In this document: positions 5,423 to 38,649 of the stretch, in pieces
Layout: each line of letters begins with the position of its first letter
Position numbering within the stretch: position 1 is the first letter of the stretch
Source of the DNA: a bacterium
GTDB lineage: Bacteria > Patescibacteriota > Saccharimonadia > Saccharimonadales > UBA4665
Direction: 5' to 3'
DNA: 41,078 bases
Assembly: GCA_021850365.1 (NCBI GenBank)
Contig: JAJZMH010000005.1
Location: forward strand, 1-41,078
The notes under the pieces: generated by a model
The model's input: the letters and a program-made list of their open reading frames with translations, nothing else
Database searches by the model: none
Told to the model about the DNA's origin: nothing
Program-made: the position numbers and the translations under genes

Positions 5423-6190
5423 CTATCTTTTTTTAGGTAAGTATTTTAATGTTAATTCGGTTCTTTTTTTTGAATATTCACAAAACTCGCAAATACCACC
5501 CATAGCCGATTTACCGACCTTGGGAATTTCTCCATCCAAACACTTTTTAATATTCTTAATTTCTTCCTCTATCCAATCAATATTTGTATTATGCTCAATT
5601 ATTTTCGTCTTAAATTTTAATACATCATAAAATCCATCTGAATCTATTTGAGCATTTGTATAAACAAATATAGCTTTATCACTTACCTTAAATCCATTCA
5701 TTCTTAACAACCATACATAAATTTCGACCTGCCTTTTATATCCAATTTGCCAATCAGAATCTACGTTAACTTCAGATGTCTTAGAAGTTGCCTTATAATC
5801 TACAACTATTAATTCGTCTTTACTATTGATCCATAAATCATCCACGGCACCAAAAACAAATAGATTTGTTGGTTTATCCAAATATCCGATTCCAACAAAA
5901 TTTTCTCTCCATTTATCGAGATCTGGGTGTTCAAATGGAATTGCATCTATACCATTTTCAATCATTATTGGATGTGCTTTTTTAGATTTTCTGTAAATAT
6001 CAAATTCCTTTTTAAAAAGCTGATCAACTGCGTTATTTAGATTAAAGGGTGGCATAGATGGACGCTTAATGCCCAATCTAGCATCCAACCAAAAACAACG
6101 CTGACATTGCATAAACAATTCAATTTTAGATCTACTAATTTTAAATGGCTCTTTTTGTTTAGGGACATAAATTAAATTCCTATATGACAT
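5423..6190 (-). CDS. PD-(D/E)XK nuclease superfamily protein, Cas4/RecB-like, with cysteine cluster
   Basis: A 255-residue protein carrying the signature of RecB/Cas4-type nucleases: GAVDD (D117/118), VDYK (D131, K133) and QxxxY (Q154, Y158). Cysteines at 29, 32, 234 and 237 (with an extra C217) flank the nuclease core at both ends, as in the iron-sulfur-staple nucleases Cas4 and AddB. The sequence is consistent with a metal-dependent DNA exonuclease; a DNA repair or recombination role is inference. No CRISPR array, cas gene or helicase partner lies nearby. It has its own extended -10 (TGATACAAT, plus 6200-6208) ending 9 nt before the ATG and ends 17 bp before serS starts. Gene name not assignable. 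Confidence 0.85.
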   Translation of the reverse strand: MSYRNLIYVPKQKEPFKISRSKIELFMQCQRCFWLDARLGIKRPSMPPFNLNNAVDQLFKKEFDIYRKSKKAHPIMIENGIDAIPFEHPDLDKWRENFVGIGYLDKPTNLFVFGAVDDLWINSKDELIVVDYKATSKTSEVNVDSDWQIGYKRQVEIYVWLLRMNGFKVSDKAIFVYTNAQIDSDGFYDVLKFKTKIIEHNTNIDWIEEEIKNIKKCLDGEIPKVGKSAMGGICEFCEYSKKRTELTLKYLPKKR

Positions 6191-7464: not shown

Positions 7465-7839
7465 TTATCTTTGGTCCAATAAATTAATTTGTTGATGATC
7501 TAGTCCATAATAATGAGCAATCTCATGCCATAAAGTATGTCTAATATTTTCTTTTAATTCTAATAGGTTATTTGATCCACCCTCAATAGGATTTTTGAAT
7601 AAAGTTATTTTATCTGGTATGGTTTTAAGATTCCCTTGTCTTTTACTTAACGGAACGCCTTCATACAACCCATATAAAGTTTGATATTTTCCAACATTCA
7701 GTAATTTTAACTGTTGAGGACTAGGAATATCCTCTACAATAATTGCAACATTCTTTAAGTTTTGAATGTGATTTTTAGATAACTCAAGCATACTATCATT
7801 GATCATATTAATGAAAACATCTCTAGAAACATTAATCAT
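7465..7839 (-). CDS. Small zincin-type metallopeptidase-like protein (MpN / PF06262 family)
   Basis: A 124-residue protein with an extended zinc motif HEIAHYYGLDH (H105, E106, H109, H115), as in the small possible zinc metallopeptidase family PF06262 found in actinobacteria and many CPR genomes. The upstream Y-G-L-Y-E-G-x-P-L and P-D-K-I-x-L-F segments (56-82) also match that family. Catalytic activity and substrate are unknown. The start overlaps the lysS 3' end by 8 bp, so the gene is translationally coupled to lysS; a possible internal -10 (TATAGT) lies just upstream within lysS. Confidence 0.85.
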   Translation of the reverse strand: MINVSRDVFINMINDSMLELSKNHIQNLKNVAIIVEDIPSPQQLKLLNVGKYQTLYGLYEGVPLSKRQGNLKTIPDKITLFKNPIEGGSNNLLELKENIRHTLWHEIAHYYGLDHQQINLLDQR

Positions 7840-9355
7840 TTTTACTATATAATTCCGGATAAATTGATTTAGTCACTTGATCAATGTCATATCTTAAATT
7901 TGGAAACGGAACACCTTCTCTTGCCGATACACCTTCAAGTGCCCAAAATATCCTCTCAGATATCCCCCACCCACAGGTTGGTGGCATTCCATACTCCAGC
8001 ATTTCTACAAAATCTATATCTAGCATTTGTGCCTCGTTATCGCCACTATCTCTAAGTTTTTGCTGCTCAATAAATTTATTTAATTGATCAATAGGGTCAT
8101 TTAACTCTGAATAGCCATTACCCATTTCTGTACCTAAGAAGACTGGGTGAAATCGTAAACTTAATCTAGGATCTTTAGGGTTAACTTTTGAAAGTGGAGA
8201 TAAAAAAGTAGGCTCATAAATTAACCAAAATGGTCCGGCTGACTCTCTTCTGATAATTTTCCATACATTATCTAAAGCTCTAGAAATATTGATTTCGCCC
8301 TCAAGAGTAACTTTATTTTTAATTAAAATATCTTTTAGTTGATTTAAGTCAGGATTAAATACATCAATTCCGAATTTATCCCTTAATATATCTGGGTAAC
8401 TTTTTCTGGGCCATTCTTGGTCTAAGTTAATATCAAAATTCCCTATTTTAAAATCTAATCTGCCCCAAGTCGATTGAATAACCTGTTTTAACATATCCTC
8501 ATAGAATTCTAGGGCTTGTTCAAAATTTTGATAAGCCATGTAACTTTCCATAGCAATATGTTCTGGTAAGTGTTCATCTGAGTAATTTTCATTCCTAAAT
8601 CTAGGTCCTATATCAAAAACTCTCTCGTACCCAGATCCTATAAGTCTTTTTAGGGGTAATTCATGGCTTATTCTTAAATAAAAATCTTGATTTAAAGAAT
8701 CCATATGGGTAATAAATGGATTAGCATCAGCTCCACCGGTAGTATGCTCTAAAACTGGGATATTAATTTCAATGAAATCTTTTCTTAAAAGATAATCTCG
8801 TGTATTTTGCCAAAATTTACTTCTACGTATAAATCTCTGTTTGACATCATCATTTACATTAATATCTACATATCTCCGTCTTAGCCGTTCTTCTTTATTA
8901 GAAAAACCATCTTGTAATGTTGGAAGTGGCCTGAGAGATTTAGTTAAAATTCTCAAACTATTAACCATGACCGATATTTCACCAGTTTGAGTTTTATTTA
9001 CCTTACCCTTTCCTTCAATAAAATCACCAGCATCTAAAAGATTAATTAAAGAAAAATCAATTTGTGAAGGATCTAATTTATTGTCTCTATTATTTAGGGT
9101 ATTCTTATCAAGGAACAATTGAATTTTTGAACTTTGATCCTTAATAACAATAAAACTGATTTTGCCGAATTTCCGGATGTTCAGAATTCTTCCTGCGACA
9201 ACTACTTCTTTATCTTGAAATTGATCATATTTATCAGTAATATCTGAAATAGGATTTGTTCTATTCGAATTTTCAGGATACGGATTGATATCTAATTCTA
9301 GTAGGGAATTAAGTTTCTTAAGTCTCTCGTTCCTGAGTTCTTTTAGTGTAGCCAT
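7832..9355 (-). CDS. lysS: Lysyl-tRNA synthetase, class II
   Basis: A 507-residue class IIb synthetase. An N-terminal OB-fold anticodon-binding domain (about 50-150; VAGRILNIRKFGKISF) precedes the catalytic core with the motif 2 region (RISHELPLKRL, then FRNENYSDEHLPE) and the lysine-site segment NGYSELNDPIDQ. Motif 3 is odd: the usual GLGIGIDRM reads GWGISERIF (462-470), apparently one residue shorter, with the arginine kept, and the next loop to FPNLR is also trimmed. It leads the lysS-zincin-HAD operon. No Shine-Dalgarno is seen; AT-rich -10-like sequence lies directly upstream. Confidence 0.95.
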   Translation of the reverse strand: MATLKELRNERLKKLNSLLELDINPYPENSNRTNPISDITDKYDQFQDKEVVVAGRILNIRKFGKISFIVIKDQSSKIQLFLDKNTLNNRDNKLDPSQIDFSLINLLDAGDFIEGKGKVNKTQTGEISVMVNSLRILTKSLRPLPTLQDGFSNKEERLRRRYVDINVNDDVKQRFIRRSKFWQNTRDYLLRKDFIEINIPVLEHTTGGADANPFITHMDSLNQDFYLRISHELPLKRLIGSGYERVFDIGPRFRNENYSDEHLPEHIAMESYMAYQNFEQALEFYEDMLKQVIQSTWGRLDFKIGNFDINLDQEWPRKSYPDILRDKFGIDVFNPDLNQLKDILIKNKVTLEGEINISRALDNVWKIIRRESAGPFWLIYEPTFLSPLSKVNPKDPRLSLRFHPVFLGTEMGNGYSELNDPIDQLNKFIEQQKLRDSGDNEAQMLDIDFVEMLEYGMPPTCGWGISERIFWALEGVSAREGVPFPNLRYDIDQVTKSIYPELYSKND

Positions 9356-13866: not shown

Positions 13867-14463
13867 TTATTTAACTTCACCTAATGCAATTCGATAAAAC
13901 TTATTTATAACTATATTTTCACCCAATTTGGATATATGTTCTTTTAGTAATTCATCAATTGTAATTTTTTCATCCTTAATAAAATATTGGCTAAGAAGAC
14001 ATTTTTCTGAAAAATATTTATTAACCTGATTTTCTACAATTTTCTGAATCATTTCTTTAGGTTTATTTTCACTTAACGCTTTAGTAGAATACTCATCAAA
14101 AACTTTTGCTTTAATATCTTCTGGAACATCTTTGATACTTATATATTCTGGATCTGTAGCGGCTATTTGCATGGAAATATCTTTAACTAAATTTAAGAAT
14201 ATTTCATTTCTAGCAACAAAATCAGTTTCACAATTTACCTCAACAACTACACCTATTCTGTTATCGTGATTATACGTGTTTACTATACCTTCACGAGTTT
14301 CTTTCTCGCTTCTTTTCTCAGCTTTTGTTAAACCCTTCTTTCTCATTGTTTCTAAAGCCTTATCAAAATTTCCTTTTGAATCCTCTAAAGCTTTTTTGGC
14401 ATCAGTTAAGCCAACACCAGTTAAATCCTTTAATCTCTTAATTTCATTTAATTCAATCATCAT
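13867..14463 (-). CDS. tsf: Elongation factor Ts, short form
   Basis: A 198-residue nucleotide exchange factor for EF-Tu. The N-terminal UBA-like domain carries LKDLTGVGLTDAKKALED (about 10-27), and the core has NCETDFVARN. It is shorter than the E. coli protein (283), matching the one-subdomain EF-Ts of many bacteria. AGGGAGG lies 5 nt before the first of two consecutive ATG codons (14463 or 14460). It sits 18 bp after rpsB in the classical rpsB-tsf operon. Confidence 0.96.
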   Translation of the reverse strand: MMIELNEIKRLKDLTGVGLTDAKKALEDSKGNFDKALETMRKKGLTKAEKRSEKETREGIVNTYNHDNRIGVVVEVNCETDFVARNEIFLNLVKDISMQIAATDPEYISIKDVPEDIKAKVFDEYSTKALSENKPKEMIQKIVENQVNKYFSEKCLLSQYFIKDEKITIDELLKEHISKLGENIVINKFYRIALGEVK

Positions 14464-14481: not shown

Positions 14482-15192
14482 CTAATCTTTAGTAACTTTT
14501 GATTTAGCGGCAATAATTGTTTTCTCAAGATATTCTAAAATAAGTCGTATTGTTTTCGTAGAATCATCATTTGCTGGAATAGGATAACTTATCTTAGTAG
14601 GATCTGCGTTCGAATCAACTATAGCTACAATAGGGATATTCAATTTATTGGCTTCACTGATACAAATATGGTCAATAACAGCATCAACGACAAAAACAGC
14701 TGATGGAATATTATTCATGTTTTTTATACCAGAATAAATATCGTTTAAACGTTCAATTTTTTCTTGTATTCTCTGAATCTCCAGTTTATTAAACTTATCA
14801 TTATAGACTCCAGCAAGCATATTTGATTCTAATTCTTTTGACTTTTTGATCTGCAAACTTATAGTATTCCAGTTAGTTAACGTTCCACCCAACCATCTTT
14901 TAGATATGTATGGCATACCCGTTTTTTGAGCTACCTCTTGGATAATTTCTCTAGACTGAGGTTTTGTTCCAACTAATAAAATTTGTTTACCCTGGGATGA
15001 TATATCATAAATATAATCTAAGGCTAATTTTAAACAATCAGCAGTTTTCTCTAAATCAATGATATGAATACCCTTTCTTTTTGAGTGTATATATTTATTC
15101 ATTTTCGGGTTCCACCTACTGGTCCTATGCCCAAAATATGCACCTGATTCAAAAAGTTTCTTGACGTCTATCTCTATTACTTGCTCAGCCAT
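14482..15192 (-). CDS. rpsB: 30S ribosomal protein S2
   Basis: uS2, about 237 residues from the ATG at 15192. The early motif FESGAYFGHRTSRWNPKM, then ILLVGTKPQSREII, YISKRWLGGTLTNW and P-I-V-A-I-V-D-S-N-A-D-P are all diagnostic. The longer frame begins at a TTG (15210), but the ATG at 15192 has AAAGGA 5 nt upstream and matches family N-termini, so the shorter start is chosen. A folded leader of roughly 80 nt precedes it. Confidence 0.97.
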   Translation of the reverse strand: MAEQVIEIDVKKLFESGAYFGHRTSRWNPKMNKYIHSKRKGIHIIDLEKTADCLKLALDYIYDISSQGKQILLVGTKPQSREIIQEVAQKTGMPYISKRWLGGTLTNWNTISLQIKKSKELESNMLAGVYNDKFNKLEIQRIQEKIERLNDIYSGIKNMNNIPSAVFVVDAVIDHICISEANKLNIPIVAIVDSNADPTKISYPIPANDDSTKTIRLILEYLEKTIIAAKSKVTKD

Positions 15193-15208
15193 ATTTTCCT
15201 TTCTCTTC

Positions 15209-15260
15209 AATCGGATGCCACTTTCATTGACTAATGTAAATGGAGGATTTATTCCCGATT
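15209..15260 (-). promoter_or_regulatory. Candidate structured 5' leader of rpsB
   Basis: The transcript between a TATAAT (plus 15280-15285) and rpsB can fold. An outer 6-bp stem pairs AATCGG (transcript side 15260-15255 region) with CCGATT (15214-15209). Inside it a hairpin at 15218-15243 has a 5-bp stem with one G-U pair, a 2x2 internal loop and a 4-bp stem closing a 4-nt loop. The outer stem ends shortly before the Shine-Dalgarno. Bacterial rpsB mRNAs are known to carry S2-responsive leaders; that this is one is inference from position and fold. Confidence 0.45.
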
Positions 15261-15279
15261 TGTTTAGTTATTTAATATT

Positions 15280-15285
15280 ATTATA
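15280..15285 (-). promoter_or_regulatory. -10 element of rpsB-tsf
   Basis: Minus-strand TATAAT (in TGTATAAT) lies about 87 nt before the rpsB ATG and would start a transcript with a leader of about 80 nt. Confidence 0.45.
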
Positions 15286-15319
15286 CATAATCTAATAAAT
15301 ATTTCAAGGTGATATTAAG

Positions 15320-15356
15320 ATTGGTTATTGACCAATACAGATAAAACTTATATACT
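15320..15356 (+). promoter_or_regulatory. rpmE promoter with inverted repeat over the -35
   Basis: TTGACC (15328-15333), a 17-bp spacer and TATACT (15351-15356) form a good sigma-70-type promoter, placing the start near 15363 and a leader of about 40 nt before rpmE. A perfect 6-bp inverted repeat, ATTGGT-5nt-ACCAAT (15320-15336), overlaps the -35, an operator-like position. Confidence 0.6.
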
Positions 15357-15402
15357 GACAATCTAGATTAAATATTATTAATATATTTTAGATAAGAATA
15401 TT

Positions 15403-15723
15403 ATGAAAAAAGAGATTCATCCAGGTAATTACAGATTAGTTGCTTTTAAAGACTTAAATAATGGAAAAGTCTTTTTGACTATGTCAACGGCTCCAGCAGA
15501 AGATAAAATTACAATTGAAGGAACTGAATACCCTTTAGTAAACATACATATCAGCAGTAGTTCACATCCATTTTTCACTGGTGAGGAACGAATTGTAGAC
15601 GTTGAAGGAAGAGTAGATAAATTTAAGGCTCGGGTAGCAGCTGGAAACGCCGCTAGAGCTTCTCTTATGAGTAGTCAAAAGAAAGAAAAAGTACCGAAGA
15701 AAAAAGAAGTAACTGTTTCTTAA
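15403..15723 (+). CDS. rpmE: 50S ribosomal protein L31 with C-terminal extension
   Basis: bL31: MKKEIHPGNYRLVAFKDL opens the protein, and S-S-H-P-F-F-T-G-E-E-R-I-V-D, then G-R-V-D-K-F are the family hallmarks. The zinc cysteines of C+ L31 are absent, so it is a zinc-free form. At 106 residues it is about 35 longer than usual, with an Ala- then Lys-rich tail (75-106) probably contacting rRNA. Lack of a clear Shine-Dalgarno is notable given its leader of about 40 nt. It heads the conserved rpmE-prfA-prmC neighbourhood. Confidence 0.92.
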   Translation: MKKEIHPGNYRLVAFKDLNNGKVFLTMSTAPAEDKITIEGTEYPLVNIHISSSSHPFFTGEERIVDVEGRVDKFKARVAAGNAARASLMSSQKKEKVPKKKEVTVS

Positions 15724-15794: not shown

Positions 15795-16859
15795 ATGGAT
15801 ATTGATATAGATAAAATTAATCAAGAAATTTCAGAAATTGAGATCAAATTAAAAGATAGTAATTTTTTTAGAACTAAGGAATACCCACTGATCGCTAAAA
15901 AACAAGTTGAGTTATTAAAGCTTTTAGAACTTTTGAAAAAAGCTGAAAATATAAAATCTCAGATTAAATCTTCCGAAAAAATCTTATCCGATAAAGAAAA
16001 TATCGACTTACATGATTTAGCACAACAAGAGTTAATCTCCTTAAATCAAGAATTGGAAAACACTACTCAAGAAATTCATAATATAATGATCCCTTCTGAT
16101 CCGAACGACATTAAAAATGTAATATGCGAAATTAGACCTGCGGCAGGTGGCAATGAATCAAGTATCTTTACTGGTGAGTTATTCAAAATGTATTCTAGAT
16201 GGGCAGAAAATCATAATTATAAAGTAGAAATTTTATCTGAAAATATTAATGAAATTGGCGGATTTAAAGAAATAATTTTTGCTATCAACGGAGATAGTGT
16301 CTATGGCAGATTAAAATACGAAGCTGGGGTACACAGAGTACAAAGAATCCCCTCTACTGAAAGTCAAGGGAGAATTCACACCTCAACAGTAACTGTTGCG
16401 ATTTTACCCGAAGCTGAAGAAAAAGACGTTGAGATTAACCCAAATGATCTAAGGATTGATGTTTATAGATCAAGTGGACACGGTGGACAATCAGTAAATA
16501 CCACAGATTCTGCAGTAAGAATAACTCATATCCCTTCTGGAATAGTGGTATCTAATCAAGATGAAAAATCGCAAATTAAAAACAAAATTAAAGCATTAAA
16601 TATACTTCGATCGCGATTATTAGCCATTCAAATAGAAGAAAGTCAAAAGAAATTATCCGTTGAAAGAATAGCATTAATTGGAACTGGGGATAGAAGTGAA
16701 AAAATTAGAACCTATAATTTTCCGCAAGACAGAATAACCGACCATAGAATAAATTACACGAGATCAAATATAGTCCAATTCTTGAATGGTAGTATTGATG
16801 ATATGCTAGATAAACTTCATGATGCAGATATAAAATTATCAGCTAATGAAAAAAAATAA
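15795..16859 (+). CDS. prfA: Peptide chain release factor 1
   Basis: A 354-residue class I release factor reading UAA and UAG. The catalytic GGQ (230-232, in [16 protein letters not shown]) triggers peptide release. The codon-recognition tripeptide P-x-T is PST (186-188, in [14 protein letters not shown]), marking RF1 rather than the SPF-type RF2. An N-terminal coiled-coil domain spans about 1-100. It overlaps prmC by 14 bp, so the factor and the enzyme that methylates its GGQ glutamine are coupled. Confidence 0.97.
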
Positions 16860-19063: not shown

Positions 19064-19813
19064 TTAGATTACTTTATTTCCCCAATTGGAAAACAAAATA
19101 ATAATTCCTACAATAACTATTAACGTAAAAATTATTTCTTTTTTATAGATATTTTTTAATTTATTCTTATGATCTAGGTAGTAGATCATCGAAAGGCCAT
19201 AGCCCAATATACTTAATATCAAAGCTGGCTGAGATAAAACTTTATAATATATCAACCAATGTCCTAAAAGCCAAGCTAAACTTGCACCAAAATAGGCCCA
19301 AGAATAAGATAAAAGTTTAGAATAAGTTTCATCATAATTATCAAAAAAATGATGAGACACTAAATAACAAACAACTCCTGTTGCAAATACTAATATATAT
19401 AATGGTTCATTTATGCCTATTAAATATACCGCAGATAATCCGACTAATTGGGCTATAAATGCCTGTAAAGAGACTATTAACAGATCGAATGAAGGTTTGA
19501 TAAATATTAACCATGATATATAAATTAAGACCCAACCCAACTGATAATAAATGTTTGAGGATTGAGCCATAAAAATTACTATTGATAATCCAAAAATTAA
19601 ATCCACAGAATTTGCTCTTATATTTGCTAACCAAAATCTAGGTTTTATGGCTATCATACGCCATTTACTTATCACAACAAGACTAAATGCCAACTGATAA
19701 AAATTTAATCGAACTAATAAAACTAACATCAATGGAAACAAAAAATTTAACAATAGATGTAAAATTTTTGAGTATCCATTTAATGGCTTAACCTTTTCAA
19801 GTAATAAACTCAT
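19064..19813 (-). CDS. Uncharacterised polytopic membrane protein
   Basis: The 249-residue protein is almost wholly hydrophobic, with about eight predicted membrane segments and short loops. I do not recognise a family motif; conserved-looking polar residues inside the membrane include the HHFFDNYDE segment (about 153-161) and HW-L-I-Y-Y near 185. It may be a small sensor or transporter-like protein, but no function can be given. It precedes htrA by 20 bp, suggesting a joint transcript. An extended -10, TGGTATTAT (plus 19823-19831), ends 9 nt before the ATG; no Shine-Dalgarno. Confidence 0.8.
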   Translation of the reverse strand: MSLLLEKVKPLNGYSKILHLLLNFLFPLMLVLLVRLNFYQLAFSLVVISKWRMIAIKPRFWLANIRANSVDLIFGLSIVIFMAQSSNIYYQLGWVLIYISWLIFIKPSFDLLIVSLQAFIAQLVGLSAVYLIGINEPLYILVFATGVVCYLVSHHFFDNYDETYSKLLSYSWAYFGASLAWLLGHWLIYYKVLSQPALILSILGYGLSMIYYLDHKNKLKNIYKKEIIFTLIVIVGIIILFSNWGNKVI

Positions 19814-19879: not shown

Positions 19880-20530
19880 ATGAATAATGAAGACAATAAA
19901 ATCAATAATACACCCGAAGACCAATCAAAAAAGCATAAAACCCTTTTTAAAATATTAAAGAATGATATTGTTTCTACAATTGGAATATTTATATTGGCAG
20001 GGTTATTTTCCTTTTTAATTATTAGCTTTGTTTTTAGATCATATCAAGTAGACGGACCAAGCATGGAAAATACTCTCCAAAATAATGACAAATTAATAGT
20101 TTGGAAACTTCCGAAAACATGGTCAGAAATTACCGGCACCCCATGGATACCAAAACGAGGAGACATTATAGTTTTCCGTGAATCAGGCCTAGCTGCATTT
20201 GGTCAGACTAATACCAAAGATCTTATTAAAAGAGTTATCGGTTTACCAGGAGATAAACTAGTATTAAGTAATGGAAAATATATGATCTATAACAAAAAGC
20301 ACCCAAAAGGGTTTGATCCTGACTTGACTCTTGCATATGGTCAAAAAGAGAAAATTCCATACACTTCAGGAAATGAAACAATTGTTCTGGGCAAAAATCA
20401 ATTGTTCGTATCTGGGGATAATAGGCCAGACTCTTTGGATTCAAGAGATTTTGGACCAATTAATGCAAACCAAATAATTGGACAATTAATAATCCGATTT
20501 TATCCATTTAATAAATTTGAGATATTTTAA
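19880..20530 (+). CDS. lepB: Signal peptidase I
   Basis: A 216-residue membrane-bound serine protease removing signal peptides after Sec export. A single N-terminal membrane helix (about 33-52) is followed by the catalytic GPSME box with nucleophile S61, and KRVIGLPGD with general base K117. Box E, GDNRPDSLDSRDFG, supports the substrate-site fold. About 30 N-terminal residues are polar and charged. The transcription start probably falls on the ATG (TATAAT ends 8 nt upstream). It shares a divergent promoter region with the membrane protein-htrA unit, so two export-related units sit back to back. Confidence 0.96.
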   Translation: MNNEDNKINNTPEDQSKKHKTLFKILKNDIVSTIGIFILAGLFSFLIISFVFRSYQVDGPSMENTLQNNDKLIVWKLPKTWSEITGTPWIPKRGDIIVFRESGLAAFGQTNTKDLIKRVIGLPGDKLVLSNGKYMIYNKKHPKGFDPDLTLAYGQKEKIPYTSGNETIVLGKNQLFVSGDNRPDSLDSRDFGPINANQIIGQLIIRFYPFNKFEIF

Positions 20531-20593: not shown

Positions 20594-21451
20594 ATGAAAC
20601 CAAAAATAGGTCTAGGTAGAGGATTTGAATCATTATTACCAAATAATTTTAATAAAGATATATTACTCACTAAAAATGACATTATCAGAAACATTGCAAT
20701 AGATGAACTTCTACCCAACCCAAATCAGCCTAGAAAAAAATTTGATCAAGTTAGTATTGATGAATTGGCGTCATCGATAAAGAGATATGGAGTTATTCAA
20801 CCAATTTTAGTTACCCCGAAAGATCAAAATCAATATTATATTGTGGCAGGCGAAAGAAGATGGAGGGCATCAAAAATAGCCGGATTGAAAATTATACCAG
20901 CCATTATCAAACAACGTAAAGAACTAGAACAAATCGAAGTCGCCATTATAGAAAACGTTCAAAGAGTTGATTTAAGCCCTATGGAACAATCTATTAGTAT
21001 TGCTAAATTGAAGCAGCAATTCAATTTTTCGTTTGAGGAAATTGCACAAAAGCTAGGAAAGGCTTTATCGACAATCATAAACACATATAGGCTTATAAAT
21101 CTACCTGAAAAAGCTAAAAAAGCCCTAATAGACAATAAAATAACCGAGGGACATGCAAGGCAAATACTAGCAATCAAAGATCCTAAAAAACAACTCTATC
21201 TTTTAAATTCAATTATAAAAAATAAATGGACAGTACGAAAAGCAGAGCAATTTGTAATTGGTTTAAAATCAAATACCGGAAAATTATCTAAAGCAAAGGC
21301 CCATACAGATATTGAAAACCAAAAAACCAGGATTCTCTCTAATAAATTATCTACAAAGGTGAGTATTAGAAGAATGGCTCATGGAGGAAAATTAGAAATC
21401 AGTTATAGCGACGAGGAAGATTTAGACAGAATTATAAGTTTATTTAGATAA
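20594..21451 (+). CDS. parB: Chromosome partitioning protein ParB (Spo0J/Noc family)
   Basis: A 285-residue CTP-gated DNA clamp that loads at parS and spreads. The N-terminal ParB/Srx domain has N-Q-P-R-K-K-F (box I), AGERRWRAS (box II, CTP binding) and ENVQRVDLSPME (box III). A helix-turn-helix domain (about 135-190; FSFEEIAQKLGKALSTI) and the C-terminal dimerisation helix follow. It is encoded tail to tail with parA and overlaps it by 12 bp rather than following it in an operon. No canonical parS palindrome is visible in the window. Confidence 0.95.
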   Translation: MKPKIGLGRGFESLLPNNFNKDILLTKNDIIRNIAIDELLPNPNQPRKKFDQVSIDELASSIKRYGVIQPILVTPKDQNQYYIVAGERRWRASKIAGLKIIPAIIKQRKELEQIEVAIIENVQRVDLSPMEQSISIAKLKQQFNFSFEEIAQKLGKALSTIINTYRLINLPEKAKKALIDNKITEGHARQILAIKDPKKQLYLLNSIIKNKWTVRKAEQFVIGLKSNTGKLSKAKAHTDIENQKTRILSNKLSTKVSIRRMAHGGKLEISYSDEEDLDRIISLFR

Positions 21452-22213
21452 TTGATTGATCCTCTTAATAATTTCTTTTGTTAATTCTTTGTAAGCTTTT
21501 GAGCCTTTACTCCATTTATCATGTTCATATATTGATAGACCAAAACTTGGAGCTTCTGCTAATCTAATATTTCGAGGTATTCTCGTCTTAAATGTTAATT
21601 CACCAAAATACTTATTAATTTCCTCCAATATCTGGTTACTCAATGTCGTTCTTTTGTCAAACATGGTTAAAATAACGCCCAAAATAAATAAATCCGGATT
21701 AGTACCATTTTTTATTAATTTAAATGTTTCTAATAATTGGCTTAGGCCTTCTAGAGCATAATATTCCGCCTGGACAGGGATAACTATACATGTAGATGCG
21801 GTTAATGCATTTATTGTAAGTAGCCCTAATGAAGGTGGGCAATCAATTAATATATAATCATACTCTAAGCCGTTTAATCTTTTTTGCAAAAAATACTCTC
21901 TATTTGTACTGTTTACTAATTCTATCTCGGCACCAGAAAGGTTATTTGTTGCATAGATCATAAATAAATTCTTGCTTCTAGTAGGATAAATACACTTATC
22001 AATATTTACGCCCGTTATAAAATCATAACTTGAGTATTTAATGTCTTGTTTTATTGCTCCAAGGCCACTTGAAGCGTTCCCCTGAGCATCAAGATCAATA
22101 ATTAATACTTTGAAGTTAAGAGAAGCTAAATAATAACCAATATTAATTACAGATGTTGTCTTGCCAACCCCACCCTTCTGATTAACAAAAGATATTATTT
22201 TTTTGTTCAACAT
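21440..22213 (-). CDS. parA: Chromosome partitioning ATPase ParA (Soj)
   Basis: A 257-residue ParA/MinD-type ATPase that moves ParB-bound origins. The deviant Walker A KGGVGKTT with signature lysine is at 13-20; D-L-D-A-Q-G-N (about 41-47) and the IDCPPSLG Walker B region follow. Length matches chromosomal Soj rather than plasmid ParA with an extra N-terminal domain. A TATACT (plus 22220-22225) ends 6 nt before the ATG and there is no Shine-Dalgarno, suggesting a leaderless mRNA. The upstream 382-bp gap holds a palindrome and DnaA-box-like sites. Confidence 0.96.
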   Translation of the reverse strand: MLNKKIISFVNQKGGVGKTTSVINIGYYLASLNFKVLIIDLDAQGNASSGLGAIKQDIKYSSYDFITGVNIDKCIYPTRSKNLFMIYATNNLSGAEIELVNSTNREYFLQKRLNGLEYDYILIDCPPSLGLLTINALTASTCIVIPVQAEYYALEGLSQLLETFKLIKNGTNPDLFILGVILTMFDKRTTLSNQILEEINKYFGELTFKTRIPRNIRLAEAPSFGLSIYEHDKWSKGSKAYKELTKEIIKRINQLSK

Positions 22214-22965: not shown

Positions 22966-23238
22966 TTATGATAAAGCATAAGCTTTAACTTCATCGATTA
23001 TTGGGAAGCTCTCGCCCTCCCAAGATTTTTGAACACTACCATCATTTCTAAGTACGAGCACTGCAGGAAACGAAAATATATCGTAGATACTAGCCAAAGC
23101 ACTTCCATCTCTAGTATCTGCTGAAAGCGTCTCAATACGAACACTTGATCCCTTAAGTTCAGTATTGAGTCTTTCAATAAACTGATCAAGGCTTGAAAAG
23201 TGTTCTGAATTTTTCTTATAAAGTACTAATATCTTCAT
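22966..23238 (-). CDS. Thioredoxin-fold protein without the CxxC active site
   Basis: A 90-residue protein with the beta-alpha-beta pattern of thioredoxin: a first strand KILVLYKK, a helix, the strand RIETLSADT, and the cis-proline loop FSFPAVLVLRNDGS (about 54-67), followed by W-E-G. The CxxC redox pair is absent and the protein has no cysteine at all, so it cannot be a thiol donor. It could be a binding or scaffold version of the fold. It lies between nrdJ and rplU with its own -10 (TATAAA, plus 23247-23252) ending 8 nt from the ATG. A partnership with nrdJ is only a positional guess. Confidence 0.75.
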   Translation of the reverse strand: MKILVLYKKNSEHFSSLDQFIERLNTELKGSSVRIETLSADTRDGSALASIYDIFSFPAVLVLRNDGSVQKSWEGESFPIIDEVKAYALS

Positions 23239-31893: not shown

Positions 31894-33825
31894 ATGCATT
31901 ACTATCAGATAATCGTTAGGAATAATCGGGTTAATTTAAATAATCCTCTGATTTATCACTCCAATATATTTATTAAAAATGGGTCATTGATTTGTGTTGA
32001 ACTCCAAAAACAAGAATGTATTGGAATAATAATAAGCTCAACTAAAAAACCCAAATTTAAAACTAAGCCCATTCTTTCTGTCTATAATCTTCCAGGACTA
32101 AATAAATCAACCCTTCAATTAATCAAATGGCTAAAAATGTATTATCCATCCACCTATAGTGCCGTGCTTAAACTTTTCATTCCCAATAAAATTAATGACC
32201 AAGATACAGCTGATGATTTAAATCTCAATTCCAGAAAATCATCTCATTTGGTAAATTTAACACCTGAACAAAGTGAAACTATAGCTAAAATAAAATTTAA
32301 TCAAACTTATTTATTACACGGAAGAACCGCAAGTGGGAAAACAAGAATATATCAAGAATTGGCCGTTCAGGCTATTGGCAATACTAAATCTGTTATAATT
32401 TTAACACCAGAAATATACCTAACTAACCAACTCTACGATGCGTTTCAAAACATTACAAACTCAAAAGTATACTTAATTCACTCAAAACTGAACTTAAATA
32501 AGAAACAAAAAATATGGGTAGAGATCATGAAATCAAAGAAACCTATTATTCTGATAGGTCCGAGGTCAGCTTTATTTTACCCAGTGAATAATTTAGGTTT
32601 AATAATTATAGACGAGTTCCACGACAATTCATATAAATCTGAAAGTCATCCAAAATATCAAACAGTACGAGTTGCCAGTATGCTTAGAAGATACACTGAC
32701 TCTAAATTAATTTTAGGTAGTGCTACACCTAACGTAGCTGAGTATTATTTAGCAAAACATAAAAATATACCTATTATAGAATTAAAAAAAACTGCAATTA
32801 AACAAGACAATGCTGAAATTGATTTTGTTATAGTTGACTTAAAAGATAACCAAAATTTTAAAAATTCTAAGATCATTAGTGATCAATTAATCAATTCAAT
32901 AAATCAATCAATGTCTAAAAATGAACAGTCCTTAATTTTTTTAAATCGAAGAGGTACCTCTAGATTAATTTTATGTAAAGATTGTGGCTGGGAAAATTTA
33001 TGTAAAAATTGTAATCTACCGCTTATTTACCACAAGGATAAGAACTATCTAATCTGCCATTCCTGTGGGAGAATATTTAAGGATATCCCGTTTTCTTGTC
33101 CAATCTGTAATAGCACCAACATAATTTATAAAACTCCTGGCATTAAGGCAGTTGAAGAAGAGTTCCAAAAAATATTTTCTAACTCAAAAATAGCTCGCAT
33201 TGATAGCGATAGTAAAGTTACCGAAACACTTATGTCATATGAGGCTATTAAAAAAAATGAAATCGATATCATTATAGGAACACAACTCATAACAAAAGGT
33301 TTGGATCTGCCTAATCTCTCTACAGTGGGCCTAATTCAGGCCGATAGCAGTTTATACATTCCGGACTATACTTCGAAAGAAAAAACTTATCAACTGCTAA
33401 CACAGGTCTTAGGAAGAACAAATAGAGGCCATAAAAAAGGAAGATTAATTATTCAATCATATAACATTAAAAGCAACTTACTAGAAAATGCCATTTCTCA
33501 AAACTATATAAATTTTTATAAACAAGAAATTGTTGATAGAAAGAAATATCAATTTCCTCCATTTTATAATTTGTTAAAATTAACTAATCAAAAATCTACA
33601 CCTTTAAGTGCTAACAATAAATCTAATGAATTAATAACTAAAATTAATAAACTTTATAATAATATTATAATTGAAGGTCCATCACCATCATATCGTGAGA
33701 GAATAAATAATAAATATGAATCTCAAATAATAATAAAATCTAAAAATAGATCAGTCTTAAATGAAATTATATCTATACTCCCTTCAGGCTGGGATTATGA
33801 TATTGATCCAAATAATCTTCTCTGA
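31894..33825 (+). CDS. priA: Primosomal replication-restart helicase PriA
   Basis: A 643-residue superfamily 2 helicase that reloads the replisome at stalled forks. Walker A GRTASGKT (143-150); Walker B reads DEFH (240-243) where PriA normally has DEEH; motif III GSATP (275-279). Eight cysteines in four CxxC pairs (361/364, 370/373, 388/391, 402/405) form the two-zinc wrench, and motifs V-VI follow (GTQLITKGLDL, QVLGRTNR). The N-terminal 3'-binding domain is shortened. It ends in TGA. Its start is supported by the TATAAT ending 9 nt upstream. Confidence 0.95.
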   Translation: MHYYQIIVRNNRVNLNNPLIYHSNIFIKNGSLICVELQKQECIGIIISSTKKPKFKTKPILSVYNLPGLNKSTLQLIKWLKMYYPSTYSAVLKLFIPNKINDQDTADDLNLNSRKSSHLVNLTPEQSETIAKIKFNQTYLLHGRTASGKTRIYQELAVQAIGNTKSVIILTPEIYLTNQLYDAFQNITNSKVYLIHSKLNLNKKQKIWVEIMKSKKPIILIGPRSALFYPVNNLGLIIIDEFHDNSYKSESHPKYQTVRVASMLRRYTDSKLILGSATPNVAEYYLAKHKNIPIIELKKTAIKQDNAEIDFVIVDLKDNQNFKNSKIISDQLINSINQSMSKNEQSLIFLNRRGTSRLILCKDCGWENLCKNCNLPLIYHKDKNYLICHSCGRIFKDIPFSCPICNSTNIIYKTPGIKAVEEEFQKIFSNSKIARIDSDSKVTETLMSYEAIKKNEIDIIIGTQLITKGLDLPNLSTVGLIQADSSLYIPDYTSKEKTYQLLTQVLGRTNRGHKKGRLIIQSYNIKSNLLENAISQNYINFYKQEIVDRKKYQFPPFYNLLKLTNQKSTPLSANNKSNELITKINKLYNNIIIEGPSPSYRERINNKYESQIIIKSKNRSVLNEIISILPSGWDYDIDPNNLL

Positions 33826-37548: not shown

Positions 37549-38649
37549 CTATACTTTGGACTTCGAGGTTTTCTTCTTAGGGGTAGCATCCTTTAGTGAA
37601 AGTGCAATTTTCCTATTATCCTCATCTATATCTATAACTTTAAACTCTTTAATTTCATTCAATCGAAATATTTTTTCAGGATCAATACTCTCGTCATCAC
37701 TCATTTCAGATACATGTACTAAGGCTTCCACGCTAGAACTCAGTTGAACGAACGCTCCGAAAGGCGTAATTCTTGTTACTTTCCCCTTAACAATTTCTCC
37801 CTTCTTATATGCCTTTATTTGTTCCATCCATGGATCTTTTGTCATTTGTTTAAGACTTAACGATAATCGATCTTTATCAATTGCAATAATCTTTGCCTTA
37901 ATTTTATCACCAACTTTTAGATAATTTTTTGGATCATCTACTCTCTCCCAAGATATTTCTGAAATATGTATTAATCCCTCAATTCCATCTACATTAACAA
38001 ATGCACCAAAATCTATAACCCCAGTAACAACTCCATCAATCTCGTCTCCAATTTTTAAATCCGTAAACTTGTTTTGCATATCTTCTTTAGTAGCTTCTCT
38101 CTCAGAAAATATTAATTTATTATCTTTTCTATTAATATCCAAAACTCTTACTTTTAATACTTCTTTTGTTAATCTATTAAGTTTCTGCAATATTTCTTCT
38201 TTATCTGCTCCATTTACTCTAGGATAATGAACTGCGGATAATTGCGAAACTGGCAAGAATCCCCGTATTCCTTCTAATTCGACGAGTAATCCACCCCTAT
38301 TGGCATCGTATGGAGTAATGTTAATAGTTTCCTGAGATTCATACAATCTTTGAATCTCGTCCCATCCTTTATCTTTTGAAGCTTTTCTAGTACTTAATAA
38401 AACCTGTCCGTTATCCATTTCAGGATCAATAACACTTACGGTTACCTTATCCCCAGCAGGAATAGTTCTAATACTATTAATTTCTTTCTTTGAAATTATT
38501 CCAAATCCATTTGATCCCAAATCAATTGTAATTTCATTCTTTTTAGTCGAAATAATGGTACCATCCAAGACATCGCCTACCTCTAGTACTTTAATATCAT
38601 TTTTGGATAACAAATCATCCATACTGATTTTTTTAGTAACTACACTCAT
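37549..38649 (-). CDS. rpsA: S1 RNA-binding domain protein, ribosomal protein S1
   Basis: 366 residues with four S1 repeats (about 20-85, 102-172, 197-265 and 282-350). The third and fourth carry the strongest signatures (G-V-V-T-G-V-I-D-F-G-A-F-V-N-V-D and G-K-V-T-R-I-T-P-F-G-A-F-V-Q-L). E. coli S1 has six domains; four is common in Gram-positive and CPR relatives. A lysine-rich tail closes the protein. AAGGAGAT lies about 12 nt before the ATG. Confidence 0.92.
   Translation of the reverse strand: MSVVTKKISMDDLLSKNDIKVLEVGDVLDGTIISTKKNEITIDLGSNGFGIISKKEINSIRTIPAGDKVTVSVIDPEMDNGQVLLSTRKASKDKGWDEIQRLYESQETINITPYDANRGGLLVELEGIRGFLPVSQLSAVHYPRVNGADKEEILQKLNRLTKEVLKVRVLDINRKDNKLIFSEREATKEDMQNKFTDLKIGDEIDGVVTGVIDFGAFVNVDGIEGLIHISEISWERVDDPKNYLKVGDKIKAKIIAIDKDRLSLSLKQMTKDPWMEQIKAYKKGEIVKGKVTRITPFGAFVQLSSSVEALVHVSEMSDDESIDPEKIFRLNEIKEFKVIDIDEDNRKIALSLKDATPKKKTSKSKV

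Follow-up and report, generated by a model that had tools for sequence, protein, structure and literature searches.

The window analysed here, a stretch of 41,078 nucleotides of Candidatus Saccharibacteria (Saccharimonadales) DNA, carries on its minus strand the gene for ribosomal protein S2, rpsB (14482–15192; PF00318 Ribosomal_S2, E 7.8e-81), followed in the same operon by tsf, the gene for elongation factor Ts (13867–14463, minus strand; PF00889), which has its own Shine–Dalgarno (SD) sequence; the gene order is rpsB, tsf, frr. A probable −10 box of the rpsB promoter, TATAAT, can be read from the sequence at 15280–15285 (minus strand), and transcription is expected to start near 15273, giving a leader of ~80 nt. 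The MFE fold of the minus strand across 15193–15285 agrees with the original prediction of a leader of about this length with an outer stem and an inner hairpin ahead of the SD: a 7-bp stem, P1, pairs AAUCGGG (15260–15254) with UCCGAUU (15215–15209), and encloses a hairpin, P2 (15243–15218), built from 6 bp, a 1x1 A.A loop (the symmetric internal loop that had been predicted), a further 4 bp and an AGUC loop. Both P1 and P2 rest on covariation (see below) as well as on the MFE fold.

Several unpaired elements, all on the minus strand, surround these stems. A conserved 5′ flank, ACUAAACA (15261–15268; family consensus AUUAAGCA), sits directly 5′ of P1 and is separated from the TATAAT box by 14 nt; in relatives, a ATCTGTTAnAAT-like box mostly lies 15–18 nt upstream of the conserved AAGCA flank, and its position predicts a leader of ~80–110 nt in most of them. 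Within P1, directly 5′ of P2, is an anti-SD-like UCCU strand (15244–15247), and immediately 3′ of P1 comes a conserved purine-rich linker, GAAGAGAA (15201–15208), the 8 nt of which bridge the end of P1 and the SD, AGGA (15197–15200). This AGGA can form 4 bp with 15247–15244, and is thus both the SD and the 3′ strand of a pseudoknot for which we present comparative evidence (invariance of UCCU and a pairing test).

The original prediction also set this leader against a genome in which most first genes seem to have none, a contrast that is fair in kind and overstated in degree. By raw count in this AT-rich DNA, nine of the 24 probable first genes of the window lack an SD-like stretch and have a −10-like box 6–11 nt upstream of the start codon (5423–6190, 7832–9355, 15795–16859, 19064–19813, 19880–20530, 20594–21451, 21440–22213, 22966–23238 and 31894–33825), signs of leaderless transcripts; an SD-like stretch is present in six of the 24, rpsB included.

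The rpsB leader is conserved across the order and its stems covary

The relatives of the window have small genomes (0.5–1.6 Mb), and the S2 gene could be located in 56 of the 59 genomes of the order. The usual design upstream of it reads AUUAAGCA, P1, AUCCUCC, P2, GGcac, P1′, GAAGAGAAAGGA, start. From 50 leaders located by text pattern we took 26, picked for good alignment (alignment A1), to build a covariance model, R1, which matches the rpsB leader in 52 of the 56 order-level loci (E ≤ 1, 248 kb searched); in the four missed (L034, L044, L052, L054), P1 and a 7-bp knot can be made out by eye. Four matches fall beyond these loci (L072, L075, L079, L080), and the 56 R1 matches at E ≤ 1 among 83 loci in all make up a second alignment, A2. 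Against 75 loci of other lineages R1 gave a single match (L126). In a phylum-wide sample of 286 genomes, searched with stricter filters that miss divergent leaders, all nine matches (E ≤ 0.1) lie directly before rpsB. In the genome of the window R1 finds the rpsB leader and, beyond it, two weak matches (45–46 nt, E 0.22 and 9) that were taken as chance.

Folding of the 26 A1 leaders by RNAalifold, unguided, yields P1 and P2, and each of the 16 pairs carries compensatory changes. In A2, two-sided changes occur at all 17 P1/P2 pairs across the 56 sequences, a result in favor of the original prediction, which had staked itself on compensatory substitutions among relatives. Overall, 90.6% of the cells of A2 are paired (94.1% for the 7 bp of P1, 83–90% for P2), and the covariation score of 0.582 compares with 0.189 in shuffled alignments and at most 0.090 when pairing partners are slid. 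These compensatory changes thus show selection on the structure, and the comparison confirms the rpsB leader fold as real, with conservation and covariation far beyond chance. The energy of the single copy in the window lies within the range of chance (15193–15285, z −1.18, 22 of 200 shuffles as good), as does that of a 231-nt stretch (z +0.73 relative to shuffles).

A few loci depart from the usual arrangement. In L020 (1501–2438, minus strand) a short ORF beginning ATGGCAAGAGTTCATG lies between the conserved leader and rpsB and ends just before rpsB, as if a small unknown gene had slipped in between; in L051 (1128–1357) ~130 nt separate the end of the leader from the rpsB start, and by eye no clear ORF lies in this gap. 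A SAM riboswitch (RF00162, 48.4 bits) is found near rpsB in another Saccharibacteria relative (L057, 1165–1270). The P2 apex is CCGUGUAGG or CCGUGCAGG in many species, and is replaced (e.g., by CCUUGAGCGGAC) or missing elsewhere, the window included; where conserved, it is a possible protein contact.

Comparative support for a pseudoknot at the Shine–Dalgarno sequence

The UCCU strand inside P1, invariant in all 26 A1 leaders, pairs with a stretch 3′ of P1 that in most species is the rpsB SD (AGGA) itself. The invariance of UCCU/AGGA proves little, because AGGA is the SD in most leaders; the proof of a pseudoknot rests instead on exceptions in which a separate SD lies further downstream, since the knot upstream of it there drifts in sequence with its pairing kept. 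Examples are the strand pairs GCGUUCCU/AGGAGCGC (L106), GCGUUUCU/AGAAACGC (L111), GCGGUUCU/AGAAUCGC (L114), GGAAUUCU/AGAGUUCC (L014) and GGUUCU/AGAACC (L007). For 12 such SD-distal leaders, chosen by eye, the mean helix score is 6.79, relative to 4.89 ± 0.29 when 3′ partners are exchanged among species, and for a set of 72 leaders (the 56 R1 matches and 16 parsed by hand) it is 5.52, relative to 4.77 ± 0.09; none of 5000 permutations, in which relatedness is uncorrected, reached the observed value in either case. The 72 omit L078 and the hairpin-only leaders described below, and L019, with three copies of AGGAUAAA, was kept out of the SD-distal set; in L033 the best match is the SD-proximal copy.

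The helix is 92.2% paired in A2, an alignment that was not fitted to the knot. At the pair adjoining the UCCU/AGGA core, A-U, U-A, G-U, U-G and G-C are all seen, and 21 of 48 cells are unpaired. Taken together, the comparison shows pairing of the UCCU strand with the stretch 3′ of P1. The core in the window and its close relatives amounts to 4 bp only, and the invariant UCCU/AGGA of this close group could be conserved for other reasons; two members of the same genus (L003, L004) have three extra pairs past an A.A mismatch, as read from sequence. Given the separate SD 3′ of the knot in the 12 leaders, capture of the SD is not universal. By eye, the leader of L022 resembles the 16S 3′ tail; pattern searches for the 16S 3′ end found no match in 1, 13 and 7 genomes, presumably because the rRNA is absent or withheld from their sequences.

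In eight relatives (L115, L117, L118, L119, L121–L124) only a short hairpin is kept, so that the knot can evidently be lost. In all of these except L124, one short hairpin stands between a 5′ flank resembling AACGAAUCAG and a 3′ flank rich in purines, with no visible pseudoknot, and some of these relatives are recorded as coming from rumen, gut or faeces; in L124, a scan for the frame CA-P1-GRRG gave a mere 4-bp match. The pattern has the appearance of a stepwise loss of the element.

Relation to known S2 leaders

The rpsB motif described in 2009 (Meyer et al, 2009; RF01815 by name) comprises P1, variable stems, and an inner strand pairing with a 3′ extension after P1, and was reported from Proteobacteria, Cyanobacteria and some Firmicutes (excerpts of PMC2704228). 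The Saccharibacteria leaders likewise stand directly before rpsB, first gene of rpsB-tsf, and share both P1 with one or more variable stems on top and the pseudoknot between an inner strand and the 3′ extension. They differ in the flanks, AAGCA/GAAGAG (consensus AUUAAGCA-P1-GAAGAG) as opposed to CACAC/GGAGG in the Rfam consensus, and in the 3′ strand of the knot, which, unlike in the rpsB motif, is usually the SD itself. The E. coli member (t44, RF00127) has the same first-gene position, an upstream structured operator and an S1 protein present; it answers to S2 together with S1, which repression needs (PMC10931766, in excerpt). Both the SD and the start codon of the E. coli gene reportedly fall outside the S2 operator, and the position of the SD is the reason given for calling the mechanism unclear (same excerpts of PMC10931766); in most Saccharibacteria, by contrast, the SD is a strand of the pseudoknot.

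The comparison with known S2 leader models that the original prediction proposed was negative. Neither RF00127 nor RF01815 matched at gathering score in the window or in 15 loci, and permissive scans of 15100–15420 and of nine R1 loci gave no relevant match. RF00127 exceeded its cut-off in none of 39 relatives (its matches there were weak, E 2 to 9, and none lay at rpsB); in 14 control genomes it matched in five and exceeded the cut-off in one. RF01815 touches one leader from another phylum (L171) below cut-off, at 35.8 bits.

A looser frame, CA-P1-GRRG, is found in six of 24 upstream regions of other Patescibacteria (0.25 in dinucleotide shuffles) and in 11 of 54 from other phyla (0.85 in shuffles), the latter including one misplaced partial gene match to be discounted (L152); the frames in L127 and L172 seem fortuitous. 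A still looser version of the scan gave 37 of 108 regions, Saccharibacteria included, where five single-base shuffles gave 3 to 10. Generic pseudoknot permutation was marginal for the six other Patescibacteria (44 of 2000) and not significant for those other-phylum regions (463 of 2000). One leader of the same order (L074) combines ACA-P1-GAGG with an AACUCCU/AGGAGUU knot. On these likenesses, common descent of the Saccharibacteria leader with the known rpsB motif is likely; it would work like that motif and is probably a divergent branch of it, lying outside the Rfam families in their modeled form.

The 20 candidates of PMC7247131 are of the same class, short structured 5′ leaders of ribosomal protein operons; a search of its passages turned up a single mention of rpsB, where it lies downstream of an L13 leader, and none of Saccharibacteria, Patescibacteria, TM7 or CPR. 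In the literature searched, most subscription papers aside, an S2 leader from Saccharibacteria or Patescibacteria is nowhere described.

Discussion

The position before rpsB-tsf and the topology shared with the S2-regulated leader of E. coli and alphaproteobacteria make S2 autoregulation the likeliest reading of the Saccharibacteria rpsB leader. We propose that it acts in cis as a translational operator of rpsB-tsf, with S2 as ligand and masking of the SD as the switch, and assign this whole reading a probability of roughly 0.7. P1 would close a domain containing the P2 hairpin and, left unpaired, the UCCU strand, which could reach across to the stretch 3′ of P1 and base-pair there to give the pseudoknot. 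In the knotted RNA the SD would be hidden and the 30S subunit unable to bind, and in the open RNA binding could proceed. Free S2, in excess of ribosome assembly, may bind and stabilize the knotted form, probably with help from S1 (a bS1-like protein with four S1 domains, encoded elsewhere in the window at 37549–38649, minus strand, is a possible co-repressor partner), such that S2 would repress its own synthesis and, by coupling, that of tsf. The stems, the knot and the position before rpsB are established by comparison of sequences; ligand, switch and coupling are what we infer from them. Autoregulation had been suggested in the original prediction, which overlooked the pseudoknot with the SD, the part that would explain possible control.

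A static role for the leader is unlikely. In such a scheme P1 and P2 would shield the 5′ end and position the SD, enhancing translation or stabilizing the mRNA with no protein-dependent switching, as would suit a leader that in almost every species sits close to the predicted start of transcription, and the persistence of hairpin-only forms in some relatives; yet a co-varying pseudoknot over the SD would lower translation, not raise it, and a simple stabilizer needs no conserved unpaired flanks.

We consider it quite unlikely that the operator answers to another ligand, be it S1 alone, EF-Ts, another ribosomal protein or a small molecule. Binding of S2 is here a prediction, tsf is the second gene, and the dependence of E. 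coli S2 repression on S1 (PMC10931766, in excerpt) would fit such a ligand; however, the nine phylum-wide R1 matches lie before rpsB only, and the ribosomal protein leaders characterized up to 2009 are stated each to bind a protein encoded by the transcript they belong to (PMC2704228, in excerpt).

The way in which S2 would recognize the proposed operator invites a more specific suggestion. S2 has been proposed to stabilize the SD helix on the 30S subunit (PMC10931766, in excerpt), and the internal SD/anti-SD helix of the leader, formed by the UCCUCC-containing strand and the rpsB SD, might mimic that helix, so that S2 recognizes the mimic and locks the SD; knots of unrelated sequence among the 12 SD-distal leaders count against this, and we find it distinctly doubtful. 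That the inner fold arose by chance, with conservation confined to promoter and SD, would suit the shuffle-range fold energy of the copy in the window and is refuted by the compensatory changes in all P1/P2 pairs, lost when partners are slid.

The operator reading, if correct, would add a new twist relative to E. coli, namely direct capture of the SD by the operator knot. An SD inside the operator pseudoknot gives a direct and testable mechanism for control by S2, and sister species with the SD outside the knot provide a natural experiment. The leader makes a sequence-based case for a ribosomal protein leader in Saccharibacteria, and a model of the R1 type could extend the S2 leader families of Rfam.
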